Assembly (NCBI GenBank): GCA_002030045.1
Contig: LQBI01000024.1
Coordinates: 62,001-126,000 of the forward strand
DNA length: 64,000 bases
Source: Candidatus Aegiribacteria sp. MLS_C
Lineage (GTDB): Bacteria; Fermentibacterota; Fermentibacteria; Fermentibacterales; JCC-6
Reading direction: 5' to 3'
Positions 59,541 to 63,723 of this stretch are shown here, in pieces; position 1 is the first letter of the stretch; each line of letters begins with the position of its first letter. The notes beneath the pieces were generated by a model. That model was not told the DNA's origin and made no database searches. It was given only the letters and a program-made list of their open reading frames with translations. The position numbers and the translations under genes are program-made.

Positions 59541-60305
59541 ATGAACATAGCACTGATGCGCGAGGTCAGCCTGAGCATTTCCGAGTGCGAGATAACCAAC
59601 ATCTCCAGGAAGCCCATCGATCCCGACGAGGCCCGCAGACAGCATGAGGGCCTGGCTCAGGCCCTGAGGGAGCTGGGCTACAAGATACACATGATCCAGG
59701 AGGACAGGTCGCTCCCTGATTCGGCTTTCATAGAGGACACCGCCGTGGTCCTGGAGGAAATAGCCGTCATTACACATCCCGGAGCATCTTCCAGGAGAGG
59801 TGAGACCAAGGCAGTGGCCGAGGCGCTGAGCATATACCGCGACCTTGCCTTCATCGGAGAGTCGGGAACACTTGACGGCGGCGACGTGCTCAGGGTCGGC
59901 CGCACGCTGTACGTCGGGAAGTCATGCAGGAGCAGCGCGGTGGGAATAATCAACCTGAGGGACATCGTAGGGCAGTACGGGTACGATGTGGTTTCCGTGC
60001 CCGTTAACGGATGTCTTCATCTAAAATCCGCAGTAACACTGGTCGGCGAAGGAACCCTGCTGATCAACCCGTCCTGGGTGGATCCCTCCCTGTTCAGCGG
60101 AATGAAGCTTATTCCCGTCGACGCTTCAGAACCCTACGGCGCCAACTCGCTGCTGGTGGACGGGGGGCTGCTCTACTCCATCTCCTACCCAGGCACCAGG
60201 AAGAAGCTGGAGGACATGGGCCTGGAAGTGGTGGCGGTGGACATGACCGAGCTGGCAAAGGCCGAGGCGGACATTTCCTGCTGCTGCATTCCGTTCACCC
60301 TGTGA
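59541..60305 (+). CDS. Amidinotransferase-fold hydrolase (DDAH-like)
   Basis: A 254-residue beta-propeller guanidine-modifying enzyme. 'DSAFIEDTAVVL' has the substrate-binding Asp/Glu, 'GTLDGGDVLRVG' the second acidic site, 'GCLHLKSAVTLVGEGTLLIN' the catalytic histidine, and the C-terminal 'SCCCIPFTL' the catalytic cysteine. It is predicted to hydrolyse dimethylarginine or a related guanidino compound to citrulline. Confidence 0.9.
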   Translation: MNIALMREVSLSISECEITNISRKPIDPDEARRQHEGLAQALRELGYKIHMIQEDRSLPDSAFIEDTAVVLEEIAVITHPGASSRRGETKAVAEALSIYRDLAFIGESGTLDGGDVLRVGRTLYVGKSCRSSAVGIINLRDIVGQYGYDVVSVPVNGCLHLKSAVTLVGEGTLLINPSWVDPSLFSGMKLIPVDASEPYGANSLLVDGGLLYSISYPGTRKKLEDMGLEVVAVDMTELAKAEADISCCCIPFTL

Positions 60306-60363
60306 TCCCGGCTCTTGCCTGAAGGAACGCCATTGGTTATGTAACCCCCTGAAATAACTGGTC

Positions 60364-60500
60364 GCGGGGTGCAGGAAGGCGGTGCGAATCCGCCACGGTA
60401 GCGCCACTGTAACCGGGTACCCAGCCCCATTGTGCCACTGCCGGAATGGCGGGAAGGCGGGGTGGGGGGTCGATCCGGAAGTCAGGATACTGCACCGCGG
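60364..60500 (+). ncRNA. Cobalamin riboswitch aptamer
   Basis: The 5' leader of the TonB receptor gene carries the B12-riboswitch core: GGCGGTGCGAATCCGCC (60378-60394, a closed arm), GCCACTGTAA (60403-60412), a second GCCACTG...GGCGGGAAGGC arm, and the terminal GAAGTCAGGATAC (60478-60490). The P1 helix can be drawn between GTGCAG (60369-60374) and CTGCAC (60490-60495), extended by one or two pairs. The element is expected to lower receptor synthesis when adenosylcobalamin is bound. Confidence 0.93.
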
Positions 60501-60542
60501 CCTGGAACGGAGTCCCCGCTCAAGGGACGAGGTTCCGGTCCC

Positions 60543-60571
60543 GGCCTCCGCGGCCTCTTCCGACGGAGGTC
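60543..60571 (+). promoter_or_regulatory. btuB: Shine-Dalgarno-sequestering hairpin (riboswitch expression platform)
   Basis: CCTCCG (60545-60550) pairs with CGGAGG (60564-60569), with flanking G-C/G-U pairs possible and a 13-nt loop. The second arm is the ribosome-binding site of the receptor gene. Folding would block translation, so control is probably translational; no U-run terminator was seen. Confidence 0.6.
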
Positions 60572-60575
60572 GTTC

Positions 60576-62534
60576 TTGTATCCGGCATCTCTTCTGGCAC
60601 TCCTGGTCCTGAGGATCATCGGGATAATCGTAACGGGGCCTTCGGGGGAGCCCGTTCCAGGCGCTTCAGTCTTACAGGGCCATAATCTTGTCGGCATCAC
60701 TGATTCCCTGGGGTCCGTGAACCTTCCCGATACCGCAGGCACCTTAACGGTTTTCGCCCTCGGTTTCGTTGAATGGAGGGGGACTGTTCCTCCCTCCGGC
60801 CGGGTGGTGCTGGAACAGGTCCCTGTCCCATCTGGAATCGTGGTGACGGTAACAGGCGACAGGAGCACCCTGCGCAGGAGATTCCCCGCCACCACCATGC
60901 TGGACGGCGAAGACATGGAGACACTCTCCAGAAGCGGACTCGAAGGGCTCATGAGTCTCTCCGGAGGTGTCTTCGTGCGCGAGTACGGAGGGTCGATACC
61001 GGTGGTCTCGATATCCATCCGCGGAAGCGACCCCGCTCACACCAGCTATTCGGTCGACGGGCATGACCTTGCCAGTTGCATGGACGGCTCCCCAGGCCTG
61101 GTCCTGGACCCCGCAGTCTTCGGAGGCATGGAGGTCTCGAGAGGGTCAGGCTCGCGTTTCATGTCCGGAGGAATGGCCGGAACACTGAACTTCATCAGCG
61201 CTGCCGCTTCGAGGCCTCCGAAAGTCTCCGTTGATATCTCCGACGATGGTTCCGGCGGAGTATCCGGCAGTGTTCGGGCCGGGGAGGGAAGGCTGGGGTT
61301 CAGTCTGAGGAGATCCGTAGGCGTCAGGGAAACGACCGGGTACGGAGCCTCCCTGATCTACACCGGGAAAACGGGCCCTCTCACTGGAGGGGCTCTCGCC
61401 TCGGTCGCCGGGGGAGGCACTGAGAACCCCGACTGGAGCATTCCCACCGACGGCACCAGAGAACGGGGAAGCCTGGACTGCTGGGGAAGGGCGGAACTGG
61501 GCAGCGATCTCTCGTTAATAGCCGACCTGAGGACCGGAAGGCACGTCTTCTGCAGTACCGTACCGGAGTCCATCGATGATACACACGACGAGGCTGGAGC
61601 TGGTTTCGGAGCGGAACTGAGGATCCGTCCCGCGGGGATACACGCCATCATCTCGGCAGGGATCGAGGCCGACCGTGTATGGAGCACCTCGCTTGGAGAT
61701 CGCGGAAGGACAGCCCTGGAAGGCTCCATCGAGGCCGGTTTTCTCGAGGCGGTATCAGTGAACGCCTCGGCCGCTGTGAACCATGTACCGGGTGAAACCA
61801 CGCTACCGGGAGCAGGCATCATGCTGGGAGCACCGCTCCTGGATTCCATGGTCATCGCACATGCCGGAGCCGCACTCGGTTTTCGAAGGCCGACACTCAA
61901 CGACCTCTACTGGCCCCTGGACAGCTATGCGGTGGGGAATCCCGATCTGGAAGCGGAAACTTCTCTGGATACCGAGGCGGGAGTATCCCTCCATCCGGCC
62001 CGCCGGGCCAGTATATCGGTCACAGCTTTCTTCGGAAGGTCCAGGGACCTCATACGGTGGGAGCCGGGGGCCGAGGGCATATGGAGTCCGGTGAACAGGG
62101 CAAGGGTTGCCAGAAGGGGGGTGGAAGCCGAAGGATGGGCCAGCATAGGGAGCATGGAACTCCTGGGGACCCTCACTGTCCTGGAGGTGAGGGACGACGA
62201 TCCATGCTCCCCGGAATTCGGCAGGACCCTTCCCTACGTCCCGGACCACACATGGTCGCTGAAAGCCTCCATTGCACTGGACCGCAAGTGGCGTGTGAAT
62301 GCTGGAGCGAGGGGCATGGGCATACGCTTCACCAACTACAGCGAGACTTCCTGGCAGGCAGCGTACGCCCTGCTGCAGGCTGGCATCGATTTCAGGCCGT
62401 CGTTGCATGCCGGGATCACAATGGAACTGTCGGTGGACAACCTGCTGGACGAGGAATACCTTGAGACCAGCGGGTTCCCCGGAAGGGGAAGGACCTTCCG
62501 GGCCGGGCTGAGATGGACCGGGTCCGGATCATGA
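60576..62534 (+). CDS. btuB: TonB-dependent vitamin B12 receptor (BtuB-type)
   Basis: A protein of about 652 residues from TTG 60576, which lies 5 nt after GGAGGT. After a signal segment ('ASLLALLVLRIIG') comes a carboxypeptidase-like regulatory domain ('VTGPSGEPVPGASVLQGHNLVGITDSLGSV'). The plug domain follows ('RFPATTMLDGEDMETLSRSGLEGLMSLSGG', 'VSISIRGSDPAHTSYSVDG', 'SGSRFMSGGMAGTLNF'), then the beta-barrel ending 'YLETSGFPGRGRTFRAGLRWTG'. The cobalamin riboswitch upstream fixes the cargo as a corrinoid. BtuCD and TonB genes are not in the window. Confidence 0.92.
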   Translation: MYPASLLALLVLRIIGIIVTGPSGEPVPGASVLQGHNLVGITDSLGSVNLPDTAGTLTVFALGFVEWRGTVPPSGRVVLEQVPVPSGIVVTVTGDRSTLRRRFPATTMLDGEDMETLSRSGLEGLMSLSGGVFVREYGGSIPVVSISIRGSDPAHTSYSVDGHDLASCMDGSPGLVLDPAVFGGMEVSRGSGSRFMSGGMAGTLNFISAAASRPPKVSVDISDDGSGGVSGSVRAGEGRLGFSLRRSVGVRETTGYGASLIYTGKTGPLTGGALASVAGGGTENPDWSIPTDGTRERGSLDCWGRAELGSDLSLIADLRTGRHVFCSTVPESIDDTHDEAGAGFGAELRIRPAGIHAIISAGIEADRVWSTSLGDRGRTALEGSIEAGFLEAVSVNASAAVNHVPGETTLPGAGIMLGAPLLDSMVIAHAGAALGFRRPTLNDLYWPLDSYAVGNPDLEAETSLDTEAGVSLHPARRASISVTAFFGRSRDLIRWEPGAEGIWSPVNRARVARRGVEAEGWASIGSMELLGTLTVLEVRDDDPCSPEFGRTLPYVPDHTWSLKASIALDRKWRVNAGARGMGIRFTNYSETSWQAAYALLQAGIDFRPSLHAGITMELSVDNLLDEEYLETSGFPGRGRTFRAGLRWTGSGS

Positions 62535-62559
62535 ACACTTGAAGGGAAAAATACTGGAC

Positions 62560-63564
62560 ATGAATATCATCACAGGAATACTGACGGCGGTCCTGCTTCT
62601 CATCCTCTCATCGACCGCATGCAACTCCCCCGCGGATCCGGGATCATCCCCGAACCCGCCCGGAAACATCATAGCATGGTTCAACGGTCTGGGCAACAAC
62701 GTCGACCTGTATTTCCCCGCGTCCGATTCCCTTGTCCAGGGAGCGTACATCACGGGGGAAGTCCCGAACGACATCCTCTCCCCGGAACAGGGGCTGATGG
62801 TAGTCCTCAGCTCGCTCGACGCACGGATACAGGTGTTCGAGACCGACTCCACCGGCTCGGAGTACTTCTCAGTACAGCTCCCCTCCGGAAGCAACCCCTA
62901 CCTGATGTCCTGGGACGGCGAGCACCTCTGGGTCACCCTCCTGCTCACCTCGCAGGTCGCACGGGTCGACCTGGTCCCCGGTGGCGGCGTGGAACTATTC
63001 GACCTTCGCGGGAACCCGACATCCATCGCTTCCACCGGTCAGAGGGTGTTCGTAGGTAACGCATCATGGCCCGACCCCAGCGTCACCGGAGGCATAACCG
63101 TCCTTGACGCTTCCACGGGGGACAGCCTGGGCTCCGTGCAGACACCCGACAACGTGATCTTCCTGAAATACTTCGAGAGCACCGGAATGGTCCACGCCGT
63201 GACCACCACCTACACGGGGGACGGTCTGATCAGCATACTGGACCCGGTCTCCATGGAGATAACGGCCCAGGTACCTACGGGAGGCTCTCCCGGACAGCCC
63301 GTCGAATGCGGCGGGGGATTCGTGGCCGGCGGCGGCTGGGCGTCCGGAAGCCTTTACTTCTACGGCGAATCAGGTGTACTGGAGGATGAATGGGACACCG
63401 GGCACCTTTCGGCGGCGGGAGTTGTCTGCCTCGGGGACACCGCCTACGTGACCGATCCGACGAAAAACGTGGTTTTCGTCGCCGACTGCGAAGGGAGATC
63501 GCTCCTGGACACCCTTACTGCCGGCGCCTCAGGTCCGCAGGGCATCACCTCCGTCTCTCCCTGA
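62560..63564 (+). CDS. YVTN-type beta-propeller lipoprotein next to btuB (possible BtuG analogue)
   Basis: A protein of about 334 residues. It has a signal peptide with a weak lipobox ('LLLILSSTACNSP') and a proline-rich linker, then repeated blades: 'GLMVVLSSLDARIQVFETDSTG', 'HLWVTLLLTSQVARVDLVPGG', 'RVFVGNASWPDPS ... GGITVLDASTG', 'GLISILDPVSMEITAQVPTGG', 'GDTAYVTDPTKNVVFVADCEG'. This is a YVTN/NHL-type seven-bladed layout. It starts 26 nt after btuB and is presumably under the same riboswitch. In Bacteroides, BtuG, a beta-propeller surface lipoprotein beside BtuB, captures B12. Similar placement suggests, but does not prove, the same job. An in-frame TTG at 62539 is an alternative start. 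Confidence 0.78.
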   Translation: MNIITGILTAVLLLILSSTACNSPADPGSSPNPPGNIIAWFNGLGNNVDLYFPASDSLVQGAYITGEVPNDILSPEQGLMVVLSSLDARIQVFETDSTGSEYFSVQLPSGSNPYLMSWDGEHLWVTLLLTSQVARVDLVPGGGVELFDLRGNPTSIASTGQRVFVGNASWPDPSVTGGITVLDASTGDSLGSVQTPDNVIFLKYFESTGMVHAVTTTYTGDGLISILDPVSMEITAQVPTGGSPGQPVECGGGFVAGGGWASGSLYFYGESGVLEDEWDTGHLSAAGVVCLGDTAYVTDPTKNVVFVADCEGRSLLDTLTAGASGPQGITSVSP

Positions 63565-63586: not shown

Positions 63587-63723
63587 CCGGGCCCGGAAAA
63601 TGAGACATCCTGTATACGATTCCGGGCTTCGGAAGCATGTTCCGGGCCCGGAAAATGAGACATCCTGTATACGATTCCGGGCTTCGGAAGCATGTTCCGG
63701 GCCCGGAAAACGAGACATCCTGT
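63587..63723. repeat. 55-bp tandem repeat with palindromic core
   Basis: Two full copies (63587-63641 and 63642-63696) are identical over 55 bases. A third partial copy (63697-63723) has one change in 26. Each begins with the palindrome CCGGGCCCGG, which extends to TTCCGGGCCCGGAA at junctions, and contains GTATAC and a GCTTC/GGAAGC inverted repeat. There are no variable spacers. It lies in the 225-bp gap after the propeller gene and before the PHP gene. Confidence 0.9.

Follow-up and report, generated by a model that had tools for sequence, protein, structure and literature searches.

The closest described system to the one considered here is the BtuB-BtuG pair of Bacteroides thetaiotaomicron (PMC6143338; PMC10404256; PDB 8bmx, 8blw, 8p97/8p98), in which a riboswitch-controlled TonB receptor is encoded beside a seven-bladed propeller lipoprotein. 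In the BtuBG complex, the corrinoid-binding propeller turns its acidic face to BtuB, whose loop EL8 displaces the corrinoid (PMC10404256). BtuG was reported, on the basis of BLASTP, to be exclusive to Bacteroidetes (PMC6143338), and this exclusivity had been attributed to competition in the densely populated gut. Surface B12 capture has recently been extended beyond Bacteroidota by the BtuH/BtuJ (DUF4465) B12-binding lipoproteins (PMC8941943, PMC13398666); the 2026 DUF4465 paper argues that B12-scavenging proteins exist in a number of clades, frequently close to PF16819 propellers (PMC13398666).

In Escherichia coli, too, the gene of a TonB receptor, pqqU, adjoins that of a YVTN propeller, yncE. 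We know of no lipobox in YncE and of no B12 riboswitch that controls it.

The locus described here is a divergent BtuB-BtuG-type pair outside Bacteroidota. It has the same riboswitch-controlled receptor beside a seven-bladed propeller lipoprotein, but it is a two-gene operon without btuFCD, btuH or btuJ. Its propeller also differs by fold from BtuH and BtuJ, and DUF4465 had no match among the locus proteins scanned. We found no report of such a pair in Fermentibacterota in the open-access literature.

The locus and its riboswitch

The window, i.e., the whole 64,000-nucleotide stretch of DNA that was analyzed, belongs to a 2.98-Mb MAG (97.65% complete) assigned to the Fermentibacteraceae. The features of the locus are listed in Table 1. 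The propeller gene begins with ATG 62560, and the distance from the receptor stop codon is 25 nt and not 26 nt as originally counted. A dimethylargininase-like gene (59541-60305; NF045660 214 bits, below the cut-off of 340) is located just 5' of the riboswitch, and a GC-rich tandem 55-bp repeat (63587-63723; 2.5 copies at 98%) lies directly 3' of the propeller gene.

Table 1. Coordinates of the features of the locus in the window
Feature	Position	Strand	Evidence
Cobalamin riboswitch aptamer (RF00174)	60349..60512	+	cmscan 87.6 bits, E 2.9e-20, full model 1-189
Expression-platform hairpin	60542..60572	+	MFE fold; CCTCC (60545-60549) pairs with GGAGG (60565-60569)
TonB-dependent receptor, BtuB-like, 652 aa (most likely start)	60576..62534	+	PF00593/PF07715; PDB sequence matches; Foldseek on G010 orthologue
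BtuG-like seven-bladed beta-propeller lipoprotein, 334 aa	62560..63564	+	AF2; Foldseek; hhalign; mature net charge ~-27
Lipobox cysteine codon (Cys21)	62620..62622	+	invariant in 32/32 homologues

The aptamer scores well above the RF00174 gathering score (31.5 bits) and is thus a cobalamin riboswitch. It is the only gathering-level match in the window and the only cobalamin riboswitch match in the source genome. The next open reading frame encodes a TonB-dependent receptor, in agreement with the B12 aptamer and receptor of the original prediction. The listed GTG start of this frame (60432) falls within the aptamer. Downstream of the aptamer, a hairpin in the MFE fold sequesters the Shine-Dalgarno sequence of the receptor gene; its energy is unremarkable (z only -1.5). 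A hairpin of different sequence, judged by eye, covers the ribosome-binding site at the same place in relatives. Together, the hairpin and its counterparts in relatives point to a putative translational switch and to TTG 60576, behind the GGAGG, as the most likely true start of the receptor. The direction of switching would presumably be repression by B12.

The riboswitch class is not the same everywhere. In genus g5 (L054-L062, L065 and L066), the same locus has an RF01482 (AdoCbl) riboswitch instead of RF00174, with a new hairpin over the Shine-Dalgarno sequence that is unrelated in sequence to the one in the window. The low RF00174 scores in this genus (24-28 bits) were considered as a sign of decayed switches, and this explanation was rejected because good AdoCbl aptamers occupy the same place.

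The receptor and the propeller

The receptor has a plug and a barrel (PF00593, 3e-24; PF07715, 4e-6) preceded by a carboxypeptidase-regulatory-like stretch at the N-terminus. Its best sequence matches in the PDB are Bacteroides BtuB proteins (8bmx, 9e-17; 8p97; 8p98), with E. coli BtuB at 0.008. The fold was compared using a model of the G010 orthologue, which shares 46% identity with the window protein; BtuB structures take all of Foldseek ranks 1-11, with E. coli first and B. thetaiotaomicron BtuB1 second, and PqqU is at rank 17. Judged from this model, the receptor is BtuB-like and closest in fold to cobalamin receptors. It scores under the equivalog cut-offs of TIGR01779 (54.3 versus 599.7 bits) and PRK10641 (26.1 versus 836), models that look tight around enterobacterial BtuB. 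The Fermentibacterota receptors form their own monophyletic clade, which is not nested in Bacteroidales; support for the deep placement, which would tell whether they descend from Bacteroidales BtuB or were passed to that group, is only 0.34.

The propeller was modeled with AF2 from 32 homologues (alignment A1, also used for its profile); the propeller of one close relative (L031) is 64% identical. The model (pLDDT 92.2, pTM 0.86) has 28 strands arranged as seven blades of four. In a single-sequence Pfam search, the protein matched nothing at E<1, PF16819 included, and TIGR02276 ('beta_rpt_yvtn') gave an E of 0.0013, which is under its cut-off. The earlier description as a YVTN-type beta-propeller holds for the fold, whereas the sequence evidence is weak. 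As for the lipoprotein signal, Cys21, after a hydrophobic stretch, is one of 18 invariant columns in the 32 homologues, even though the lipobox agrees poorly with the consensus (LPAM_1 matches only two of them). All 32 propellers are acidic like BtuG, with net charges of -15 to -35. We infer that the lipoprotein is exposed at the cell surface.

By Foldseek E-value, the best PDB match of the propeller is not BtuG but 1l0q, a YVTN propeller from an archaeal surface layer; BtuG-type entries fill all of ranks 2-10 (TM 0.64-0.74, 12-14% identity), and the predicted fold is that of BtuG. The A1 profile gives the same order against the PDB (1l0q, 2e-17; BtuG chains, 3e-12). When A1 was aligned by hhalign with a Bacteroidales BtuG profile, made from 13 PF16819 sequences of which 11 have a receptor directly upstream, the match (probability 98.7, E 1.7e-16, 299 columns) extended collinearly from the lipobox through to the C-terminus. 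The two families have a C-terminal motif in common (DSLxAGxGPQGI/DSxxAGIIPGGF). Identity to BtuG is only about 13-16%, and single BtuG sequences match the propeller profile with probabilities from 23% to 97%; because these vary so much, the profile result outweighs any one pair. Because of the profile-profile E-value and collinearity, the relationship looks like homology rather than mere analogy. E. coli YncE, used as a single sequence, aligns with only 83 of the 338 profile columns at 29% probability.

The window propeller falls under the PF16819 threshold that recognizes BtuG: the PF16819 (DUF5074) profile has no match anywhere in the source genome, and E<0.1 is reached in only seven of the 32 relatives. 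The correspondence with the corrinoid pocket is partial. PMC10404256 names four aromatic residues of the BtuG2 pocket (W194, W272, Y316, Y335); Trp194 aligns with W170 of the propeller, a position that is W or Y in 31 of the 32 sequences, and Trp272, Tyr316 and Tyr335 have no counterpart in this alignment of about 16% identity. A pseudo-complex of the G010 receptor and propeller, made by reading through an in-frame TGA (NCBI table 4), gave a pTM of 0.59, too low for a confident docking, with an unpaired alignment and the signal peptide in the linker.

Distribution of the pair

The propeller is present in 36 of the 42 genomes of the phylum; a 37th match, in G012, is a second propeller type and is not counted. 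The receptor is immediately upstream in 33 of the 36 (in G007 and G023, the locus is cut by contig ends, and in G003, the genes are separated), and the intergenic distance, where measured, is -4 to 47 nt. Thus, the expected co-occurrence with btuB was seen throughout the phylum. In total, 61 cobalamin riboswitches were detected in the phylum; a propeller follows within 4.5 kb in 44 cases, of the window type in 28 and of the second type in 16. Contig ends interrupt several of the remaining 17, and some lead to the second propeller (G033, G025, G029, G034) or to receptor or cob genes. In G039 and G040 (f3), frames of about 1,030 codons resembled receptor-propeller fusions. A fusion was rejected, since receptor and propeller are read in different frames and the long frame arises by chance from the GC content.

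The G003 arrangement is more complicated. Its propeller lies directly under its own cobalamin riboswitch with no receptor gene beside it, and is still preceded by an expression hairpin and a short receptor-like leader (L158 1-900). Its receptor, 46% identical to that of the window, is elsewhere (L159 437-5636), as the last gene of a riboswitch-led His-phosphatase/CobU/CobT/CobS operon. Since each gene is behind its own riboswitch, each is independently tied to corrinoids, at least in this one MAG (67% complete, 310 contigs).

A second cobalamin riboswitch occurs in many Fermentibacterota (L083 792-2826, L088 5906-7940, L089 2975-4965, L160, L165, L166), and this locus was not seen in the genome of the window. 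It controls a distinct PF16819-like propeller of about 400 aa that has a type IX secretion tail and no receptor beside it. The companion of this propeller is a conserved protein of about 270 aa with the motif DPWADxSPxVxYGxGAGFGQ... and no name in Pfam. The two are a candidate for a new secreted B12-binding pair.

Outside the phylum, the order riboswitch, receptor, propeller was found in five genomes of unrelated lineages (G042, G044, G050, G055 and G057). RpoB sets the last four apart from the sampled Bacteroidales, though they could belong to other Bacteroidota classes, as could G042, which had no RpoB match. The G042 propeller, and weakly that of G044, has a type IX sorting tail, and the G055 propeller has a lipid anchor; the G057 propeller match is weak (3e-6). 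G055 and G057 also carry BtuF/C/D-like genes. Four further genomes of the G044 phylum have a propeller downstream of a receptor. The riboswitch-btuB loci of G047, G049 and G056 have no propeller, and so the pairing is common but not universal. Two other loci deserve mention. In L073 (9193-17499), a series of cobalamin-biosynthesis-like genes behind a riboswitch begins with a NirF/cytochrome-d1-like propeller; this propeller, beside cbi genes, was not counted as BtuG-like. In L081 (3241-6264), a single 1007-codon frame reads as a BtuC-like permease that continues into a TonB receptor, either a fusion or an assembly artefact.

Proposed corrinoid capture and other readings

The source genome encodes a MetH-like protein, the small subunit of methylmalonyl-CoA mutase beside MeaB, and a BtuF/BtuD/BtuC-like cluster that is not under a riboswitch match. 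CbiC, the only biosynthesis marker searched for, was not found in it. This gene content suggests that salvage of external corrinoid is the likely need of the organism.

We put the probability at about 78% that the two genes form a B12-repressed module for corrinoid capture in which the propeller hands corrinoid to BtuB. When intracellular cobalamin is low, the riboswitch would leave the Shine-Dalgarno sequence free, and BtuB and the propeller lipoprotein would be made from one transcript. The propeller, held by its N-terminal lipid anchor, would bind corrinoid on its acidic face at the outer surface and hand it to the adjacent BtuB for import with TonB. BtuFCD would then carry it inward for MetH and methylmalonyl-CoA mutase. 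A BtuG-like role of the propeller has good support from context, fold and homology; binding of corrinoid and a lid-type complex with BtuB are the predicted parts of this reading. The phylum-wide co-occurrence, the BtuG fold and the profile homology all favor the BtuG-like pair outside Bacteroides that was originally predicted.

The three pocket aromatics without a counterpart in the alignment fit another explanation, in which the propeller takes part in B12 uptake without binding corrinoid and instead stabilizes, assembles or gates BtuB, the pocket having been lost or never present. BamB and YncE, for example, are propellers found close to outer-membrane proteins for reasons other than corrinoid binding, and yncE adjoins pqqU. 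We consider this unlikely. Such an accessory protein would not be expected to have a riboswitch to itself with no receptor nearby, as in G003, nor would the second propeller type be riboswitch-controlled with no receptor beside it. Furthermore, the invariant loop residues of the propeller homologues (N112, P113, N198, H212, P244) suggest a conserved functional site.

The same E. coli gene pair, and the appearance of PqqU among the Foldseek matches of the receptor, might suggest that a cargo other than corrinoid, such as PQQ, is imported. With B12 riboswitch control throughout the phylum, only BtuB at the top of the receptor matches, and the G003 receptor gene in an operon with cobU, cobT and cobS, there is hardly any room for this reading. 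The orientation of the lipoprotein is a separate matter: the propeller could face the periplasm and pass corrinoid from BtuB to BtuF. This is quite improbable, given that BtuF is present separately and that the paralogous second propellers and the related G042 propeller (weakly also G044) have type IX tails, which are a route to the cell surface.

The corrinoid-capture reading can be taken one step further, and this we offer only tentatively, as somewhat doubtful. Propeller-assisted B12 capture may be an ancient and widespread complement to BtuB in many Gram-negative phyla, in which the means of surface delivery can be exchanged (a lipid anchor here and in G055, a type IX tail in G042 and in the second Fermentibacterota propeller), and the second propeller with its small secreted companion may be a detached corrinoid scavenger.

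In conclusion, the conservation of a riboswitch-bound BtuB-propeller pair throughout an uncultured phylum, and its recurrence in unrelated lineages, argue for a surface B12 capture that is more widespread and more ancient than its reported restriction to Bacteroidetes implied. The divergent sequences provide a means to define the true requirements of the corrinoid pocket and of the lid, and a protein that today has no family name receives a testable annotation.
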